DNA of 64,000 bases from an uncultured Clostridia bacterium (GTDB lineage: Bacteria > Bacillota > Clostridia > Oscillospirales > CAG-272). Shown here piece after piece: positions 49,580 to 59,145 of the stretch. The stretch is taken from the NCBI GenBank assembly GCA_947624995.1, contig CANQMS010000001.1, positions 1 through 64,000 on the forward strand, read 5' to 3'. The notes beneath the pieces were generated by a model, which was not told the DNA's origin, did not search any database, and saw only the letters and a list, made by a program, of their open reading frames with translations. The position numbers and the translations under genes were made by a program. The first letter of the stretch is position 1, and each line of letters begins with the position of its first letter.

Positions 49580-51583
49580 TCAATATGCTATCATAGGTAT
49601 AAATGACGCGGTATCATGTGTCCTCTCAAGTGTCCCGTCGGCGATCCCGTAGATCCTGCCGGCGCACTTCTTTATCTCCGACATCATCTCCGGGTATGCT
49701 CTCGAACAGATGTCAAAAAGCCCTATATTGTAGTTTTCACCGTCGAAGCGCCCGAGGGTGAACTGATCGTAGCACTGGAAATAGTGGCAGCCGACGCCGT
49801 TCGGATGAGCGGCGACGCTTTCGGCGTACCGCCTGAACGCTGTCCCGCGGTCGCGCTGCGACGCGACGCCCTCTAGCCCTGTCGCCGGGAGCCCCGCGTC
49901 AAGCGCCCCGAAATGGAACTCGCCTATCATAACGGGCAGATCGACTCCGAGACCGACGACGTTCGCGATTGCACCGGTCGGGTCCTCGGAATAACAGTTG
50001 ATCGAGAAAACATCGAAATTTTCCCAGCCTGTCACAATGTCGGGGTCGGAGATCCATGCCCATCTCATCCCGAGGATCATGTGGTTCGGGTCTCTTTCCC
50101 TGCAAGCTCTCGAGGGGACTCCGACATATTCGCGGAGCATCATCCTCGAAAATTCATGCATGTCCGACGACGCAGCCGGGGAAAGCTTTGAAGTATCACG
50201 TCTGCTGCGTTCCAGCGCGTCGAAGCTCTCAATATCCGTATTCCATGCGCGGGAAAGCTTGCCGACATCACCGTATCGCTCCTTCAGGAACGCTATGAGC
50301 CGTTTTTTACATTCGGAAGGCTCCGGATCATATAGGACCTCATCCGCGAGCACGAGCCCGTCGACGAACGCCCACTCCGGCTCGTTGCGGAGAAAATACC
50401 CTATCATGTAGGGATCATTTTTTCTCTCTTCGAGCGCCGCGGCACATTCGGCGGCGGAAATACGGTATTCATCGCTGAAAACGTCCGGAAAATCGCGGAA
50501 AATTCGCTTTTTTGTCTGCGGGAAGCGATAGAGCGAGGTCACATACGGGATGCCGGTCGTTCCGAGGAGATCCCCGTCGCTCCAGTTGCCGAGCGTATTC
50601 ATGCCGTGGCACTTGAGCTGACCTATGATCATCTGCTTCCACCTGTCGTACCAACCGTCGCCGAAGGCTCGGTACAGGTTTGCCCGGAAAAATGAAAAAT
50701 TCCTTATCCTGCGCCTCCCTCCCCTGCCCCGCGGTTCGGCAAACATTTTTCCGAAAACGCCGTCGTCCCGTTCGGGGAGCCAATCGAGCCATTTTTCAAC
50801 GCCGTCTATGCGGCAGTCACCGCCCGATCCGACGCAGTCGGGTCCCATGCTGAAGAATGCGTACCCGTCCGGGTCTGTCAGCCACCATCTGCCCCCGCTT
50901 TTGCACTTTGAAAAGAATCCTGTACCGGGCGTGAGCTTTTTGTTTTTCCATCCGCCGTATTCGGTCATAAATTCGAACGGATAGCCGCCAGCCGCCTCCG
51001 AAACCTGTTTTTCGAGCGCTTCTTTGAGCTCGGCTTCGCTCTCCGTCTTCCCGCGCCAGCTCTTCCACTTGCTCTGACCGAATCTGTCAACGAGCTTGAC
51101 GTCTGGCAGGACTATATCCTCGGGATATTCGTCGCAAAGCTTAATTTCGCCGAGCGTCAGGCTTATGTCATGGAATGACGGGAGCGAGGTGAGGACAACG
51201 CGGTCGATCTCCTCCCTGTATACGCGCCTTCCGTGACAGACAATCTTGAGCGTTCCCGGAAGCGCCTCAGGGAACAGCTTTCCAGCGTCCATCCAGTCAA
51301 GACAGATAGAGACGGCGGCTCGCACGCGCGGCAGAAGTCCGAATCGGACAGTGAAAGCCGGGTCCTTTTGCCCGTGAACGTATACGAGAAAATGCATCGG
51401 TACGGAATGATCCTCGTTTACCGTCACGTAAAAAGTGAGGTAGTGCTCCTTACATTCCGCGATACCGGGCAGGAGCATGCCGCCGCCGCGTTTCAACATG
51501 CGCAGAGTACATTCTTTTGCCGATTCAGATATGATCTCGGCGCCATCATCCAAGAGCATGCGCTCCGGCTTTATTTCACGCAT
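49580..51583 (-). CDS. GH-A clan glycoside hydrolase, GH50/agarase-like
   Basis: VDRFGQSKWKSWRGKTESEAELKEAL, FMTEYGGWKNKKLTPGTGFFSKCKSGGRWWLTDPDGYAFFSMGPDCV, IGYFLRNEPEWA, VMIGEFHFGALD. Family rank uncertain. Confidence 0.6.
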   Translation of the reverse strand: MREIKPERMLLDDGAEIISESAKECTLRMLKRGGGMLLPGIAECKEHYLTFYVTVNEDHSVPMHFLVYVHGQKDPAFTVRFGLLPRVRAAVSICLDWMDAGKLFPEALPGTLKIVCHGRRVYREEIDRVVLTSLPSFHDISLTLGEIKLCDEYPEDIVLPDVKLVDRFGQSKWKSWRGKTESEAELKEALEKQVSEAAGGYPFEFMTEYGGWKNKKLTPGTGFFSKCKSGGRWWLTDPDGYAFFSMGPDCVGSGGDCRIDGVEKWLDWLPERDDGVFGKMFAEPRGRGGRRRIRNFSFFRANLYRAFGDGWYDRWKQMIIGQLKCHGMNTLGNWSDGDLLGTTGIPYVTSLYRFPQTKKRIFRDFPDVFSDEYRISAAECAAALEERKNDPYMIGYFLRNEPEWAFVDGLVLADEVLYDPEPSECKKRLIAFLKERYGDVGKLSRAWNTDIESFDALERSRRDTSKLSPAASSDMHEFSRMMLREYVGVPSRACRERDPNHMILGMRWAWISDPDIVTGWENFDVFSINCYSEDPTGAIANVVGLGVDLPVMIGEFHFGALDAGLPATGLEGVASQRDRGTAFRRYAESVAAHPNGVGCHYFQCYDQFTLGRFDGENYNIGLFDICSRAYPEMMSEIKKCAGRIYGIADGTLERTHDTASFIPMIAY

Positions 51584-51618: not shown

Positions 51619-51651
51619 AAAGGGCGTTCACACAAGGTGAACGCCCTTTTT
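51619..51651. terminator. Hairpin terminator
   Basis: AAAGGGCGTTCAC-ACAAG-GTGAACGCCCTTTTTAG. Confidence 0.75.
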
Positions 51652-51659
51652 AGCGCGGT

Positions 51660-54600
51660 TTATCTGTGATAACGCTTCTTTGTACGGACGGTCGCAGCCG
51701 TTCCGACTGCGGCGAGCACCAGTGCCGTACCGAGGCCGACAAACACGTTCATGTCTCCCGTTTGCGGAGGCACGGCGCCGATCTCTGTCTCGGCGTTCGC
51801 GAGAACGTATACGGACAGATGGTCAACGGTGAAGGTGACGTATGCTCCGTCCGCGCTGACTGTCGCCTTGATCTTTTCTGTTTTTGTGCCGTCAACGTGG
51901 AATACGAGCGTTTTTTCGGCTTTCCAGCCTGCCGGGACAGGTATGCTGATTGTGAGCGTGCCCTTCGGCTGAACTTCCTTGCCTTCTGTCAGATTAAAGA
52001 GCGAGATGTCGAACGGGACGAAATCCTTATACATGTTGCCGACGGTGTTCTTCGCGCTTGTGTAGTCTGTGTCTTCAGCATCGAGCCTGTCGACAACGAG
52101 TTCGATATCCGCATAGTAGTCGGCATTGTCCTCGGAGTACGTGCCGACAACGCTGTTTACGCTGTCAACAAGCATCTTCGGCGGTTCTTTGTATGACGGG
52201 TCGACGGCACCGCATACGGCGCAAATGCCCTTATAGAACGAGTGCTCGCCATAGCTTTCAACGGCGCCGCAGCTGCATGTCTTCCAGTGATGTGCAGCGT
52301 CTGTGATCCATTCACCGAACGAGTGTGTATGCTCCTCGGGAAGCACGTCGATATCTGTGCCCGCCTCAAGAAGCGCGCCGCAGCCGAGACAGTAAGTGTC
52401 ACCCGTGTAGCCCTTCTCGGTCGTGGTCGGATCCTTGTGATTCCTGATCTCTGTCCCGCCGGTGTGAACGTTCGGGTTTCTCAAAAGATATTCATAGTCG
52501 CAGATCTCGCAGTGACCGCCGCTCTCGCAGGAGGAAACACCGCCGGAGTGGCTGATGACCGCAGTCGTCTGTTCGCAGCCTGCGTTCGTGCATGCAACGG
52601 TATGACCCTCGGCGGTACCGACGGCGCGTCCCGAGAAATTATGCTCTTTCGCAGCAGCAGGGACGACAACCGCGCCGCAGTCAACGCAGTCGATGCTCTT
52701 CGTGCAGTCGTGCGGGTCGGCTCCGTGCTCGTGGCGCTCGCTGTCGGTATATCCGCAGGCTTTGCATTCGCGTGAATGTGTCGCCTCGTCGGTGTACTTC
52801 CACGGTCCGTAGTCATGGACGGCGACGCTGTCTTCTTTTATCGCTCCGCAGGAGCATTCGTACCAGTGGTACTCACCGTCTTTGGCAAGGATGCTGTAGT
52901 CATGCTTGTGACTCGACGGGAGTTTGTCTATCTTCTCGCCGGTGCTGAGCAGCGCGTTGCAGCTCGAACAGTATGTGTCGCCCGTGTAGCCCTCTTCCTC
53001 TTCGGTCGCGGGCTTCTGTCCCTTTATGACGGTTGCACCGACATGATTTTCGGGATTGACGCTGCCGAACTCGGTGTGACAATCTGCGCATTCCGCTCTG
53101 TCCTTGCACGTCGCGGCAATTCCCGCCTTGTGTGGAGCCTCGGACGTCTTTGTGCAGCCGTCATTCGAGCAGACGAGCTTATGATGCGTGTCGGTGTGCC
53201 CGTCCTTGGCGACGGTCCATGAATGGCTCGCACCGCCCTTTACAACTTCATATCCGCAATCGGGGCAAACGTCCGGAGTCGTGCAGTCCCCGTCGCTCTT
53301 TGCGGTATGCGTGATCTGCTCGCGGGACGTGCATCCGGGATTGGTGCAGATGCGGTAGTGGAACTCAGAATCGAACTCCCACTGACCCGAATATGAGTGC
53401 GTGGATGCAGCCTTGACCTCGTGACCGCAGACCGTGCAGTTGACAGCCTTCGTGCAGTCGCCGTCGTAGGGGCCCGTGTCTGTTTTGTCATGGGACGAGA
53501 CCATCGTTTTACCGCCGCAGAGCTTGCACGTCTGCCAATGGAAATTGCCGTCCGACTTCCATTCGCCGTCGGGGACGTGTACACGACCGTCAACGTGATC
53601 ACAGACGGTGCATTTCCCGTCGACATAAGTGTGCGGCATCTTTTCTCCGACGGTGCCGTTGCAGCCGGCGTGCTTGCAGAGCTCTATGTGGTAGAGGTCC
53701 TCTTCATCGGGACATTCCTTGAATGTTCCGCTCTTTATATGGATGGAACCGGATTTTATTTCTCTTTTGCAGAGCGTGCAAATTACGGGTGTTGTGCAGT
53801 CTGCGTCGTCCTCGCCCGAGCATTTTTCGGTCTCTGTCACTTTGCAGTTCGGGTTCTGGCACGTCTTTCTGTGGGAATACTCTGTCAGGTGCTGCGGAGC
53901 GGGCACCTGAGAATATTTGAAATTGTGGCTTTCGCTTGCCGCCGTTACGACGAGCGAGCAAACCTTGCAGTGGACCGGAGTCGTGCAGTCGCCGTCGTCA
54001 TCTTCGGGCGTATGCTCGCCTACCGGAGGAGTCTGATGAACTGTACCGAGCTCACCGCAAACGGCGCATTTTTCACGGTACTCACCTGTCGTTCCGCATG
54101 TAGCTGCAACTGTGTCCTCACGTGCTGTCCACTCATGCTTGCCGGTCGGCGGTACGGGTGTACCTACGAGCTCCATAAGACCGCACTTCGTGCAGCGGCG
54201 GAATGTGTAGCCCTCCTTTGCGCAGGTAGGTGCAACAGTTTCGTTTTCGCTCCATGTATGACCGACGGGTTCACCGGATTCGAGATCCTCCGACTTGCCG
54301 CAGCGGGCGCAAACATGGTACGGCTTCTGATCGCAGAGGGAGGGTTCCTTATCTATCCATTGGTGACCGAGTGCGGGAACTTCTTCCTCTTTGCTGAGCT
54401 CGAGGTCGCAATAGATGCAGACGTCGTGCTTAATTCCGCCTTTATCGCAAGTCGGCTCTACTATGTACCTCGTTCCTTTGATATGAGACGTCTTCGGTAT
54501 CGGACGCGTGGTAGAATAGCCGCATCTGCCGCATTCGAACGTTGATACGCCATCCTCACTGCAGGATGAGTTCTTCGTTGTCAGCCAGTTGCCGCTGTGC

Positions 54601-55271
54601 CCTCTGGGACCGTTGTCGACACAGGAGAGTACAAGACTGCATTCCGTGCATTTTGTTATCGTAACGGAATCGGTCGAGCAGTTTTTTTTGGCTATTGTTT
54701 CGGGCGCTCCCGCTTTGTGCTTTGATAATTCGATTGAAGCGTCAGCGCCGTTCACCTTCACTTCGACAAAGCCGCAGACAGAGCACGTACTGACTTGGTA
54801 TTTGACGCTGTCGCACTTGCTCGTGAGTTCTTCGGTTTTGTCGAATTTGTGCCCCTCGGCTTTTTCACCGGGAACGATCACGGTGAACCATTTGCTGCAA
54901 TATTTGCATGCGCGTCTTGACGCTCCGCCGCCGTTTGTTGTGCAGGATTGTCCGAACACACGGATATCCGCTTCGCCGCGCACAAGACGCGTACCGTCCT
55001 CGCTCGCTACGATATCAAAAGATGTCGCAAGAACGTGTTTACCGTTCGGCGCACCCTTCGCTTCGCAGGAGAGATTTTCTATATCCTCTTCGGTGCCGGA
55101 CGTTATATCCGCCTGTGCGTCGGGCTGCGGTTCAGCCTCGGACGCCTCGTGCGTATGCGCCTCTTCGGCGCTGTCGTACACGTGGTCTTCTGCGCCGACA
55201 AACAGTGCGCCCGGTATGATCATCATGGCGCAGAGAAGCAGGCACAAAAGAGTTTTGACTCTTTGCTTCAT
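51660..55271 (-). CDS. Large Cys-rich repeat surface protein with C-terminal PQTG sorting-type signal
   Basis: Signal peptide (MKQRVKTLLCLLLCAMMIIPGALFVGAE), more than 20 CxxC pairs in tandem modules, C-terminus PPQTGD-hydrophobic-RTKKRYHR. In-frame ORF extends to 55322. Confidence 0.85.
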   Translation of the reverse strand: MKQRVKTLLCLLLCAMMIIPGALFVGAEDHVYDSAEEAHTHEASEAEPQPDAQADITSGTEEDIENLSCEAKGAPNGKHVLATSFDIVASEDGTRLVRGEADIRVFGQSCTTNGGGASRRACKYCSKWFTVIVPGEKAEGHKFDKTEELTSKCDSVKYQVSTCSVCGFVEVKVNGADASIELSKHKAGAPETIAKKNCSTDSVTITKCTECSLVLSCVDNGPRGHSGNWLTTKNSSCSEDGVSTFECGRCGYSTTRPIPKTSHIKGTRYIVEPTCDKGGIKHDVCIYCDLELSKEEEVPALGHQWIDKEPSLCDQKPYHVCARCGKSEDLESGEPVGHTWSENETVAPTCAKEGYTFRRCTKCGLMELVGTPVPPTGKHEWTAREDTVAATCGTTGEYREKCAVCGELGTVHQTPPVGEHTPEDDDGDCTTPVHCKVCSLVVTAASESHNFKYSQVPAPQHLTEYSHRKTCQNPNCKVTETEKCSGEDDADCTTPVICTLCKREIKSGSIHIKSGTFKECPDEEDLYHIELCKHAGCNGTVGEKMPHTYVDGKCTVCDHVDGRVHVPDGEWKSDGNFHWQTCKLCGGKTMVSSHDKTDTGPYDGDCTKAVNCTVCGHEVKAASTHSYSGQWEFDSEFHYRICTNPGCTSREQITHTAKSDGDCTTPDVCPDCGYEVVKGGASHSWTVAKDGHTDTHHKLVCSNDGCTKTSEAPHKAGIAATCKDRAECADCHTEFGSVNPENHVGATVIKGQKPATEEEEGYTGDTYCSSCNALLSTGEKIDKLPSSHKHDYSILAKDGEYHWYECSCGAIKEDSVAVHDYGPWKYTDEATHSRECKACGYTDSERHEHGADPHDCTKSIDCVDCGAVVVPAAAKEHNFSGRAVGTAEGHTVACTNAGCEQTTAVISHSGGVSSCESGGHCEICDYEYLLRNPNVHTGGTEIRNHKDPTTTEKGYTGDTYCLGCGALLEAGTDIDVLPEEHTHSFGEWITDAAHHWKTCSCGAVESYGEHSFYKGICAVCGAVDPSYKEPPKMLVDSVNSVVGTYSEDNADYYADIELVVDRLDAEDTDYTSAKNTVGNMYKDFVPFDISLFNLTEGKEVQPKGTLTISIPVPAGWKAEKTLVFHVDGTKTEKIKATVSADGAYVTFTVDHLSVYVLANAETEIGAVPPQTGDMNVFVGLGTALVLAAVGTAATVRTKKRYHR
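52205..54912 (-). repeat. Tandem CxxC zinc-ribbon-like modules within the surface protein
   Basis: Repeated DGDCTTPVHCKVC / DADCTTPVICTLC / DGDCTKAVNCTVC / DGDCTTPDVCPDC and EEGYTGDTYCSSCNALL / EKGYTGDTYCLGCGALL. Confidence 0.85.
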
Positions 55272-55493
55272 AAAAATGACCTCTTTTCCCTTCGTGTCAC
55301 GGTCTTTGCTGCCGCGGCACAAAAAGACGTTTTCGGGGGCGACGGACGCGTTTTTCCGGGTGCGTGTTCCGTCTTCCCATACACTGCAATTATAGCAGAT
55401 TTAATATACTGTTGTCAATATAGAATATATGGTGCTGTATAAAAAATATGTAATTAAATTTTTAAATCGAACTCCGTGACAGCCCGTAAAGAT

Positions 55494-55560: not shown

Positions 55561-58500
55561 TCAGTCTGAGGACGCTTCGAATACGTATGTGCCCGAGCCG
55601 ATCTGCGAGGAAATAAGGACATATCCGCCATCGACGTGATCCGTCCCGACCGTCTCGCCGTCAAGCGTTACCGTCATGCCGTCGCCGAGGGACGGGATGT
55701 ATACATTTGCAGAGACTCCGACGGGCAGCGTCACTGTGAGCGTGAACGTACCGGACTCAGCGTCATACTTCCAAGACGATCCGACATTTCCGTGGACCGT
55801 GTCGACCGTACCGGCTGCCTCTGTAAGTCCGCCGACGACGCTCGGCTTTATGTTCACAGCATCGTACCCGATCTCTGCCGATTCGACGCCGACGATGTAT
55901 TTCGTGAACCATTCCTTCACGTGACCCATCATCGCGTGATTTCTCGAACGGGCGAGCCCGTACCAGAGCTCTTCGAAATTCCAGTATTCGGGAAGCGTGG
56001 TCAGTCCCTTGTCGAGGAAATACTTGTAGCTCGGCATAGTATCGTTCGTGACCATTTTATAAACTACGTCTCCTCTGCCGGCTTCTGCAAGCGACGAGAA
56101 AACCTGACGCAGCCCGACCTCGCCCGAGGTCAGATGATAATCAGTTTTTTCTATCGCCTTAACAAGTCTTTCAACTGTCTCTTCCCTGTTTTCGTCGAGG
56201 ACGATCCCGCTGTAGAGCACACAGCCGTACCCGGACTGCGTTCCGTTTCCGTAGAGGAACTGCTCGTTATAGCATTCTTTATTGTTGTGAAACGCCTCCC
56301 TGATCGCCTCGGCGAGCTCTCTGTAGTGCTCCTCGCCGTCGGCGTCGCCGCGGACCGTTGCGATCTTCTCCATGATCACCGCCATGCGGTAATATGCGGT
56401 CGTCTCGACAAGTACGGTCGGCGTCGTACCGTACGCGGTCATCTCGCCCCATTCACCCATCTGCCCGGTGGTTATGAGGTTGCCCTTCGCGACGTATTTT
56501 TCGAGGTAGTCCATATAGTTCTTCATCGCGCCGTAATTTTCGTCCGAGAATATCGACTCGACGCCGTACGTCTCATAATACTGCCAAGCGGTATAGATCA
56601 GTGAGCCGTTCCAGTTGAGGTCATCGTAAAGACCGTTTATCCTGAAATACTCCGGTGCGATGGCGGCTATATGCCCGTTTTCGTACTGTGCGTCCGTCAT
56701 ATCGCGGAGGATCTTCGGAATCCATGAGCTTATGTCATACGTCTGCGCCATCGAGTCGAACATGAGACCGGGCGTTTCGAGCCAGCCGAGCTTTTCGATC
56801 TGCGGGCAGTCCGTGAACGTGCTGTACATGTTGCTCTCGATCGAGCGCTCGGTAAGCGTGTTTATCATGTTCAGTATCTCGTCTGAGCAAGTGAACGAGC
56901 CGTTTTTGCCGTTGTCGGTCCTCAGTATATAGCCCTTGAAGCTTTCGCTGTCGAGCTTTATTTCCGACGGGACCGTGACCTCGAGGTACCTGTAACCATG
57001 GTAGCAGAACGTGGGGTGCCAGCTTTCGCTGCCTGTTCCCTTCGTGATGTATGTGTCATATATGAGGTCGCCGTTGTTGCTCGCGCTCTGCGTGCAGGAT
57101 GCCTGATTTATGTGTCCCGCATATCCGTTGAATGTGTCGACCTCCGCCGGATAAATGCGTACCGTCTGCCCCGCCTTATCCGTATCGACCGTTATCTCCG
57201 GAAACCCCGCGCCGTTTCGCCCCATGTCTACAAGATATGTCGTGTACCCGTCTTTTTCGGACTTCACCTTGACTGTGATCTTGTCGGGTCCGATCGTGTC
57301 GTCCTCCTGTATCGCTATCGGCTCGAATTCCCTGCCGATAAGCTCGCCCGACGGTATCTCGCTATCCGGGACAAGCTGAGCATTTCCCCACTCTGAGCGC
57401 GGGATCTCGGGGGAAATGCCGTCCCACCCGGGGATCTCGAGCCGCGCGTCGTAGTCTTCTCCGCCGTACCAGCTGTTCTCCGTTATCGGGCTTTCGACAT
57501 ACGCCCAGCTTTCATCCGTACCGACGGTGTCGCGGTCGCCGTCCGTATAATTGATCACGACCTGCGCTATTCCCTTCGGCGTGCCGAACATGCCGGCGAC
57601 CTCGCCCGAGCCTCTCGCGTCATCCGTCTTATAATACCGTCCGAATTGGCGGTGGATCCGGTAGTTCGCGTACTGCCCGTTCCCGAGCAGGAATGAAACG
57701 GCGTTCGTGCCGGTTTCAAGAAGATCGGTTATGTCGTATGTGCAGTAATATACCGTATCTCTCGCGTCCGATTCGCCGGGGTTGAAGAAGGTCCCCTCTC
57801 CGAGCGTCTTCCCGTTGAAGTGCGCCTCGAACAGCCCGAGCCCGCTTATATAAAGTCTCGCGGATGCGATCTCTTTGTCCTCCGGAACGGTGAATTCCTT
57901 TGAGAGTATCGGCGCGTTCGTCACCCCGCCGCTGCCGCCCGAGACCGTCGGTGCCGTCCGGACGGATATCTCCTTGCCGAGCGGCGAATATGCCGAGCCG
58001 TCACTTGAGATCTCGTAGCAGTATTTTTTCGGATAATTCGGACACACGTCGCCGTCTGTCGAGGCGGTATCCGTGCGGCACACGAGCCTTATTTCGTCAT
58101 ATTTGATCTCTTCGCCGAAATCGAGCGTCACGGTGACGGGGGAGCTGTACACCGGTTCTGCCGCCGTGTTCGACGTGTACCCGTCATTTATGCTCCCGTC
58201 GATGAGCTTGTCCTTCCCCCATTGGCTGCCGTATGTGAATGTGTTCGGAGCCGTGACGGTCGTCCCGCCCGGCAGTTCTGCTTTTTTTCCGTTAAGGTAG
58301 AGCTCGAGCTCCATTATCTGTACGCGGTAAATAACGCCGCGGAGTCCGCCGTCATTGTATTCCCCGAGAGCCGCAGGACCTGATTCGGACACCTTTATCC
58401 GCAAATATCTGCCCGACGTCTCGCCGACAGAGTCGCAGAGGATATATCCGGCGGAAGATGTGTCCGAAACTTTATCGGGCATGAGCCGTGAGAGCACGCT

Positions 58501-59028
58501 CTCCTCGCCCGCGCATATCCACTTTGCACTCCAATCGCTCTTTTCAAACAGACCCGTTTCAAAATACGCAGCGTCTGTACACCTGCATTCTTTTCCGTCC
58601 TTGTCCCATACCGTGACGTTCCAATAAACGCCCTGCATCGAGCCGAGCGTTTTTCCGCCGTATTCGATGCCGAAGCTGTCGTCGGACTCGACCTTTCCCG
58701 AGTCCCAGATGTCATATTCGCCTTCCGAAAGCTTTTTCGCCGAGGACGACGCGGTGATCCGGTATGCTGTCTGCTTCTGACCGCGCTCGTCGGACGCAAG
58801 CTTCCAGCTGAAGACGGGGACCGTCGACTGTATTCCGAGGGGAGAGGTCAGGCTTTGTGTACGCAGATCGTATACAGTCATATTCCCGCTTGCCTCCGTC
58901 CCGTTTCCGTCCGTTGTTGTTTCGTCCTGTTTTTCGCCGTTATTGCCGCTGCATCCTATCATGCCGAAAATGATCGGCAGCAGCAGCAAACATGCGACCG
59001 TTCTTTTGATAAGATCCCGTTTTTTCAT
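55561..59028 (-). CDS. GH78 alpha-L-rhamnosidase, lipoprotein
   Basis: Lipobox MIGC; FSWKLASDERGQKQTAYRI, YDARLEIPGWDG, TDCPQIEKLGWLETPGLMF, TTLPEYWNFEELWYGLARSRNHAMMGHVKEWF. Start taken at MKKRDLIKR. Confidence 0.93.
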   Translation of the reverse strand: MKKRDLIKRTVACLLLLPIIFGMIGCSGNNGEKQDETTTDGNGTEASGNMTVYDLRTQSLTSPLGIQSTVPVFSWKLASDERGQKQTAYRITASSSAKKLSEGEYDIWDSGKVESDDSFGIEYGGKTLGSMQGVYWNVTVWDKDGKECRCTDAAYFETGLFEKSDWSAKWICAGEESVLSRLMPDKVSDTSSAGYILCDSVGETSGRYLRIKVSESGPAALGEYNDGGLRGVIYRVQIMELELYLNGKKAELPGGTTVTAPNTFTYGSQWGKDKLIDGSINDGYTSNTAAEPVYSSPVTVTLDFGEEIKYDEIRLVCRTDTASTDGDVCPNYPKKYCYEISSDGSAYSPLGKEISVRTAPTVSGGSGGVTNAPILSKEFTVPEDKEIASARLYISGLGLFEAHFNGKTLGEGTFFNPGESDARDTVYYCTYDITDLLETGTNAVSFLLGNGQYANYRIHRQFGRYYKTDDARGSGEVAGMFGTPKGIAQVVINYTDGDRDTVGTDESWAYVESPITENSWYGGEDYDARLEIPGWDGISPEIPRSEWGNAQLVPDSEIPSGELIGREFEPIAIQEDDTIGPDKITVKVKSEKDGYTTYLVDMGRNGAGFPEITVDTDKAGQTVRIYPAEVDTFNGYAGHINQASCTQSASNNGDLIYDTYITKGTGSESWHPTFCYHGYRYLEVTVPSEIKLDSESFKGYILRTDNGKNGSFTCSDEILNMINTLTERSIESNMYSTFTDCPQIEKLGWLETPGLMFDSMAQTYDISSWIPKILRDMTDAQYENGHIAAIAPEYFRINGLYDDLNWNGSLIYTAWQYYETYGVESIFSDENYGAMKNYMDYLEKYVAKGNLITTGQMGEWGEMTAYGTTPTVLVETTAYYRMAVIMEKIATVRGDADGEEHYRELAEAIREAFHNNKECYNEQFLYGNGTQSGYGCVLYSGIVLDENREETVERLVKAIEKTDYHLTSGEVGLRQVFSSLAEAGRGDVVYKMVTNDTMPSYKYFLDKGLTTLPEYWNFEELWYGLARSRNHAMMGHVKEWFTKYIVGVESAEIGYDAVNIKPSVVGGLTEAAGTVDTVHGNVGSSWKYDAESGTFTLTVTLPVGVSANVYIPSLGDGMTVTLDGETVGTDHVDGGYVLISSQIGSGTYVFEASSD

Positions 59029-59145
59029 CGAGTGCCTCCGATATAGCATCGAACTTGACCGTTAATAATATATCACACCGGTCTTTACGCTGTCACTGTT
59101 TAAAACGGATCGTTTTTTTGGCTTTATATGACCTTTTAATCTATG

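Follow-up and report, generated by a model that had tools for sequence, protein, structure and literature searches.

How a strict anaerobe could make use of many cysteines in a protein that it exports is the question raised by one gene in the window (the whole stretch of 64,000 nucleotides of Clostridia DNA that was analysed), whose product of 1,203 residues contains 77 Cys, 75 of them in the mature chain, and 60 His. A preliminary description of this locus proposed that the Cys pairs could bind metal or form a disulfide-rich stalk. The analysis described here makes it probable that the protein is a sortase-anchored, zinc-clasped rod in which a metal is shared at each bead junction.

The gene and the predicted anchoring of its product

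The open reading frame occupies positions 51660-55271 of the minus strand (ATG at 55271, stop codon ending at 51660). It is preceded by a predicted sigma-70 promoter of the extended -10 type (55389-55418, minus strand; TTGACA-18-TATAAT, with TG before the -10 element), identified by consensus match only (12 of 12 positions), and by an SD-like AGAGG, and is followed past the stop codon by a perfect, terminator-like stem-loop without a T run (51619-51649, minus strand). Orthologues are present in five other genomes of the same genus, two orthologues come from rabbit-gut Clostridia MAGs (“Lapin”), and dN/dS values of 0.16-0.25 were obtained against three orthologues. These observations indicate that it is a real gene coding for a surface protein with predicted zinc modules. 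The adjoining genes encode a GH42-like protein (49580-51583), which also adjoins the closest orthologue, and an alpha-L-rhamnosidase of the GH78 type (55561-59049), which carries a lipobox-like signal (GMIGCSG) and is probably a surface lipoprotein.

The sequence features of a sortase-anchored surface protein were recognized by inspection, namely a signal peptide (residues 1-28, MKQRVKTLLCLLLCAMMIIPGALFVGA; 55188-55271, minus strand) and a C-terminal (S/P)PXTG-type signal consisting of the motif PPQTGD, a hydrophobic segment and a basic tail, KKRYHR (residues 1168-1203; 51663-51770, minus strand). The preliminary picture of an exported and anchored Cys-rich protein of 1,200 residues, with more than 20 CxxC pairs between a signal peptide and a PPQTGD-TM-basic tail, was thus accurate in each of these elements. 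Likewise, the class-matching sortase whose search it had advised was found twice in the host genome (2.34 Mb in 77 contigs, 97.6% complete), the two enzymes being class B by TIGR03064 with scores of 170.4, above the cut-off of 153.75, and 150.2, just below it. The (S/P)PXTG motif class is cleaved by SrtB of C. difficile (PMC4155245), whose substrates resemble the 1,203-aa protein in their sorting signal and class B sortase, whereas their ectodomains differ. Based on these sequence features, the protein is predicted to be exported and attached to the wall by a sortase. In the orthologue L037 (9400-9588) the sorting signal is degenerate, with DIPNTDYMS in place of PPQTGD, and anchoring may differ in that species.

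The sorting signal is preceded by a Cys-free domain (residues 1032-1165; 51777-52178, minus strand) predicted to adopt a ZU5-like fold (pLDDT 91-98). Its best Foldseek rows against ankyrin ZU5 have probabilities of 0.93-1.00 and E-values of 2.6e-3 to 1.5e-2, among them 6m3q_E (probability 1.00, E 6.9e-3), and no Pfam family matched this domain. The same domain is shared, in this genome and in relatives, with an LRR surface protein that has a PPETSD tail (L002:1504-1896).

Cys/His modules and the conservation of their predicted ligands

The remainder of the mature chain is mostly an array of short modules. An N-terminal cap, C69...H79 (55035-55067, minus strand), whose two residues are invariant in five full-length sequences and would supply the first CxxC (122/125) with its other two ligands, is followed by eight type I modules with the pattern C-x7..11-CxxC-x13..18-H (residues 110-421; 54009-54944, minus strand), with AlphaFold pLDDT values of 90-97 over residues ~225-385. 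The module parse placed twenty further modules in residues 422-1023 (52203-54008, minus strand), with the patterns C-x5-CxxC, H-x3-C-x1/2/4-C and YTGDTYCxxC...HxH; this region contains two copies of a superunit of ~174 aa (655-810 and 830-1003) and ends in a lone CxxC (1017/1020). Array length differs between proteins by whole superunits, four being present in L036.

The protein has 21 CxxC motifs, against a mean of 4.7 and a maximum of 14 in 2,000 composition shuffles. The Cys-pair count given in the preliminary description was correct for these motifs and missed seven further knuckles of the forms C-x4-C or C-x-C, each with a His four residues ahead (H-x3), which bring the total to 28. The three alternating module types that it distinguished are instead variants of one beta-module family, namely C-x9-CxxC-x~13-H, C-x5-CxxC-x~10-H, H-x3-C(x1/2/4)C-x~8-H and YTGDxYCxxC with HxH. 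A profile built from related proteins reads approximately G-E-W-x(7)-T-C-T-x2-G-x(5)-C-T-x-C-G-x(10)-G-H, with the three Cys at 0.87, 1.0 and 0.98 and the His at 0.99 of aligned residues. Among 584 distinct knuckles from 53 proteins, 377 have an upstream Cys and a downstream His and 70 have, without an upstream Cys, a His at -4 and a downstream His; both Cys and His occur upstream in only 7, and therefore a single upstream ligand, either Cys or His, appears to be used.

Parsed in this way, the Cys and His of the 1,203-aa protein form 28 predicted four-ligand sites, always CCCH (17) or CCHH (11), which take up 73 of the 75 mature Cys and 39 His, that is, 112 ligands; only the conserved C217 and the unconserved C520 lie outside all of them. 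Conservation was examined in five full-length sequences (this protein and four orthologues, 48-81% identical), using a site list compiled with the conservation table already known and by the rule applied earlier to the knuckle counts: 73 of 73 ligand Cys and 39 of 39 ligand His are invariant, compared with 6 of 20 other His (p = 3e-9) and 308 of 1,002 other residues. By residue type, all mature Cys but C520, which fits no site, are invariant (74 of 75), as are 11 of 14 Trp, 45 of 59 His and 60 of 100 Gly, all else ranging from 0 to 46%. The outcome that the preliminary description had named as its refutation, modules predicted to be disordered with Cys pairs that are not conserved, was not obtained, the type I modules being predicted with high confidence and the Cys being conserved.

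The nature and position of the predicted metal sites

Whether the Cys are engaged in disulfides or in metal sites can be judged from the residues that replace them. In modules that lack the hairpin-tip Cys, the trailing His forms part of a pair (HxH or CxH) in 22 of 31 cases, against 14 of 370 modules that keep it (p = 6e-20), and the effect persists when orthologues are left out (5 of 10 vs 5 of 216, p = 1e-5). A His can stand in for a Cys in a metal site and not in a disulfide; the compensation of a lost tip Cys by a paired His thus fits the former and not the latter. The high Cys density of an exported protein is what a disulfide stalk, with its Cys paired after export, would lead one to expect, and non-enzymatic oxidation or an unrecognized oxidase is conceivable. 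Nevertheless, His is as invariant as Cys at the predicted sites, and the even, mutually paired Cys pattern of EGF-like disulfide modules was not found, each site having three Cys and one His or two Cys and two His. Disulfides are further disfavoured because members of the DsbA, DsbB, VKOR and Thioredoxin_4 families were absent from the 97.6%-complete genome in searches whose controls were positive; 17 module-bearing relatives likewise had no DsbA and no VKOR above the cut-off. In addition, obligate anaerobes tend to keep Cys out of exported proteins (PMC12453122), and the structures or models of the IgA protease (IgAse) of Thomasclavelia ramosa are without disulfides among 24 Cys (PMC12237041). 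The disulfide stalk was accordingly rejected and we regard it as very improbable; of the two possibilities raised in the preliminary description, metal binding is the one that agrees with the odd Cys counts, the conserved His as fourth ligand, the Cys-to-His replacements and the lack of recognizable oxidases.

A composition of CCCH or CCHH is typical of Zn(II) rather than of rubredoxin Cys4 or most Fe-S sites, and for this reason zinc would be the likeliest metal. That the metal is iron, or that the array serves to store, scavenge or sense zinc and is not a stalk, is quite unlikely: 28 predicted sites per chain would provide a large capacity, and no catalytic domain was found beside the array in the 1,203-aa protein, whereas the ligand composition points to Zn(II) and the modules are joined in relatives to LRR, Big_2, SLH-like, dockerin-like or sortase-type parts (SLH and dockerin types being recognized by visual inspection), as would befit a generic scaffold.

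The position of the sites relative to the modules was addressed at the ends of the arrays. Among the arrays of 53 module proteins, 38 of 60 terminal CxxC are without both partner ligands, compared with 1 of 411 internal modules (p = 3e-39) and 1 of 56 first modules; 14 of the 60 last modules retain both ligands. First modules mostly have a His ahead, often as [C/H]xH, a cap found in 18 of 49 such modules vs 13 of 231 others when orthologues are left out (p = 5e-8), the strict cap being present in only 18 of 56 first modules. In the AlphaFold model most type I modules have three strands (pLDDT 90-97), with pairing read from DSSP strings. In five of these modules the tip Cys is placed midway, or almost so, between strands 1 and 2 (register from DSSP), while the CxxC is at the opposite end, separated from the tip Cys by a strand of 7 residues; the His of the previous module is at the start of strand 1, facing the CxxC, as judged from strand positions. 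In the H-x3-C modules a single strand is either flanked by the His and the Cys or contains both. The distance from H to C1 tracks that from C1 to C2 plus about two residues (rho 0.52), as in a hairpin, a covariation that is mostly between module types and is not significant within long-arm modules (rho 0.10, p = 0.09). With a pTM of 0.49, the bead-to-bead geometry of the model is uncertain.

In the first reading of the array, each site was a CCCH set within one module, formed by C1, C2, C3 and the next His, so that the beads would hang on a string without sharing metals. An internal module by itself does hold four ligands, 377 of the 584 knuckles having an upstream Cys and a downstream His, and a protein at G020:C18 contains single-knuckle units, H...C...CxxC...LPSC. 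In the latter, the final module of 12 of the 14 arrays retains the tip Cys with no further CxxC, LPSC following in 9 of the 12, and these array ends fit sites within modules better than sites between them. In this arrangement, however, neither the N-terminal cap nor, in most arrays, the terminal CxxC would have partners, ligands would be needed on both sides of the 7-residue strand, and too few sites would result for the ZBD1 domain of IgAse in comparison with the published model (PMC12237041). It was set aside and we consider it unlikely. The array-end rule, the compensation for the tip Cys and the AlphaFold strand positions favour sites between modules, and when the Cys and His of each module (n) are paired with the CxxC of the next one (n+1), there are exactly 28 pairs for 28 knuckles in the 1,203-aa protein, in a series that begins at C69/H79 and finishes at C1017/C1020. 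As parsed from the sequence, the four predicted Cys/His ligands of each site lie at module interfaces.

The G020:C18 protein (L087, G020:C18:53421-64000, minus strand), in which domains of ~110 aa alternate with short arrays (one to four modules) before a terminal dockerin-like segment, is a natural length series, and its array ends (C...CxxC...LPSC) depart from the between-module rule. An open frame of 27,536 aa at G020:C18 was discarded as an artefact of masked N stretches.

In the model that we propose for the 1,203-aa protein, ~28 beads, probably three-stranded beta meanders, would be arranged in series, and every junction would hold a metal, most likely Zn(II). To site n, bead n would contribute its hairpin-tip Cys, or a His in its place, together with the His at its end, and bead n+1 its CxxC (CxC, Cx4C). 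Neighbouring beads would thereby share a metal in an open-ended chain of interleaved sites, starting with the two-ligand cap and finishing with the lone CxxC. In a strict anaerobe, the metals could give a long stalk its stiffness in place of disulfides, and the ZU5-like domain and the class B sortase signal would fix the rod to the wall. The protein would be rod-shaped, with a length of up to ~100 nm if the spacing of about 37 A per bead in the IgAse ZBD1 model applies, and may serve as a surface spacer or adhesive filament, or as an adhesin or zinc store. Where oxygen is absent, zinc clasping would likely take the place of disulfide bonds, which suggests how strict anaerobes without disulfide machinery build long Cys-containing surface proteins. 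If this is correct, zinc availability in the gut would influence how stable the surface structures of commensals are.

Distribution and comparison with known systems

A match to the 1,203-aa protein was found in 39 of 58 related genomes, and the module profile matched 11 of 300 genomes of a phylum-wide sample (E <= 1e-10). Phage records gave no match and plasmid records gave one, from Monoglobus. Under a ligand rule that can be tested, the Cys-rich “hypothetical proteins” of the 39 genomes become a family. We lean towards the view that this is a widespread, unclassified family of extracellular repeats in anaerobic gut Firmicutes, in which beta-beads share zinc in an unlimited cross-braced series as a general disulfide substitute in surface stalks, and of which the 1,203-aa protein, with its 28 predicted sites, is an extreme example. 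The genome that carries the 1,203-aa protein also encodes a paralogue with at least 14 CxxC that runs off the contig end (L047, G000:C16:53000-57855), hence a second long module protein. In two proteins from rumen MAGs (L040, L041) the N-terminal ~350 residues form another kind of dense Cys array (CxxCGxC..., acidic, with few His) upstream of the Cys/His modules, representing a second Cys-rich repeat type.

Searches against curated families did not place the modules. On the whole protein, Pfam and NCBIfam returned no family at E <= 1 except an unrelated PAS_3 match below the cut-off, curated zinc-ribbon and rubredoxin-like families gave no score above their curated cut-offs, and phmmer found nothing. 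Among 48 module segments compared with Pfam and NCBIfam, scattered matches to many different zinc families were obtained, none of them on the segment of the 1,203-aa protein. Foldseek of the type I array against the PDB gave no match at E <= 1e-3, a search that is uninformative for extended arrays of tiny beads, and nothing relevant was found in the literature on Cys-rich sortase, SLH or dockerin repeats.

In the interleaving of its ligand pairs, one pair lying inside the span of the neighbouring site, the predicted arrangement would resemble the cross-brace zinc domains RING, PHD and MYND; these bind two zincs in a closed domain of different fold and location, in contrast to the open-ended series predicted here. 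The staphylococcal Aap/SasG B-repeats (G5-E) share with the 1,203-aa protein the design of a long, repeat-built, sortase-anchored and zinc-linked surface rod (zinc and rod being predictions for the latter), and no sequence relation was found between the B-repeats and the Cys/His modules. In Aap, zinc links molecules on opposing cells (PMC9802226), whereas in the 1,203-aa protein it would bridge consecutive beads of one chain via Cys and His.

The closest known relative is the IgAse of T. ramosa. Against the PDB, profile A1 matched 9qa6_A at E 1.7e-9 (chain residues 854-982, more weakly 1075-1142) and profile A2 at E 4.9e-7, an entry that single-sequence phmmer with the 1,203-aa protein did not reach and that was identified with IgAse from sequence features and PMC12237041. 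For this protease, AlphaFold3 modelling published in 2025 described elongated three-stranded subdomains with tetrahedral predicted Cys/His zinc sites at subdomain interfaces, the ZBD sites being predictions “pending experimental validation” (PMC12237041). The statement in the preliminary description that the function of the modules is not established must therefore be qualified, given that related domains have been modelled as zinc-binding. Applied to the printed IgAse sequence, in which the ZBD2 segment has four Cys, the between-module rule gives 3 + 2 sites, the published numbers for ZBD1 and ZBD2, which constitutes independent support for the interface-zinc model proposed for that enzyme. 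There is one mismatch, as the rule puts a CCCH site in ZBD1 while the publication puts the only CCCH site in ZBD2, both totalling 11 ligand Cys (PMC12237041). Previous knowledge of the bead type is confined to two short, predicted zinc domains of a single gut IgA protease, and no curated family contains it. The likeness between both proteins comprises significant profile similarity, three-stranded subdomains, an HxH cap, C...CxxC...H and H-x3-C...C patterns, a partnerless final CxxC, predicted interface Cys/His sites and, in IgAse, an SPQTG sorting motif. They differ in scale and setting: the 3 + 2 predicted sites of IgAse are appendages of a protease, whereas in the 1,203-aa protein 28 predicted sites, without a catalytic domain, make up nearly the whole ectodomain.
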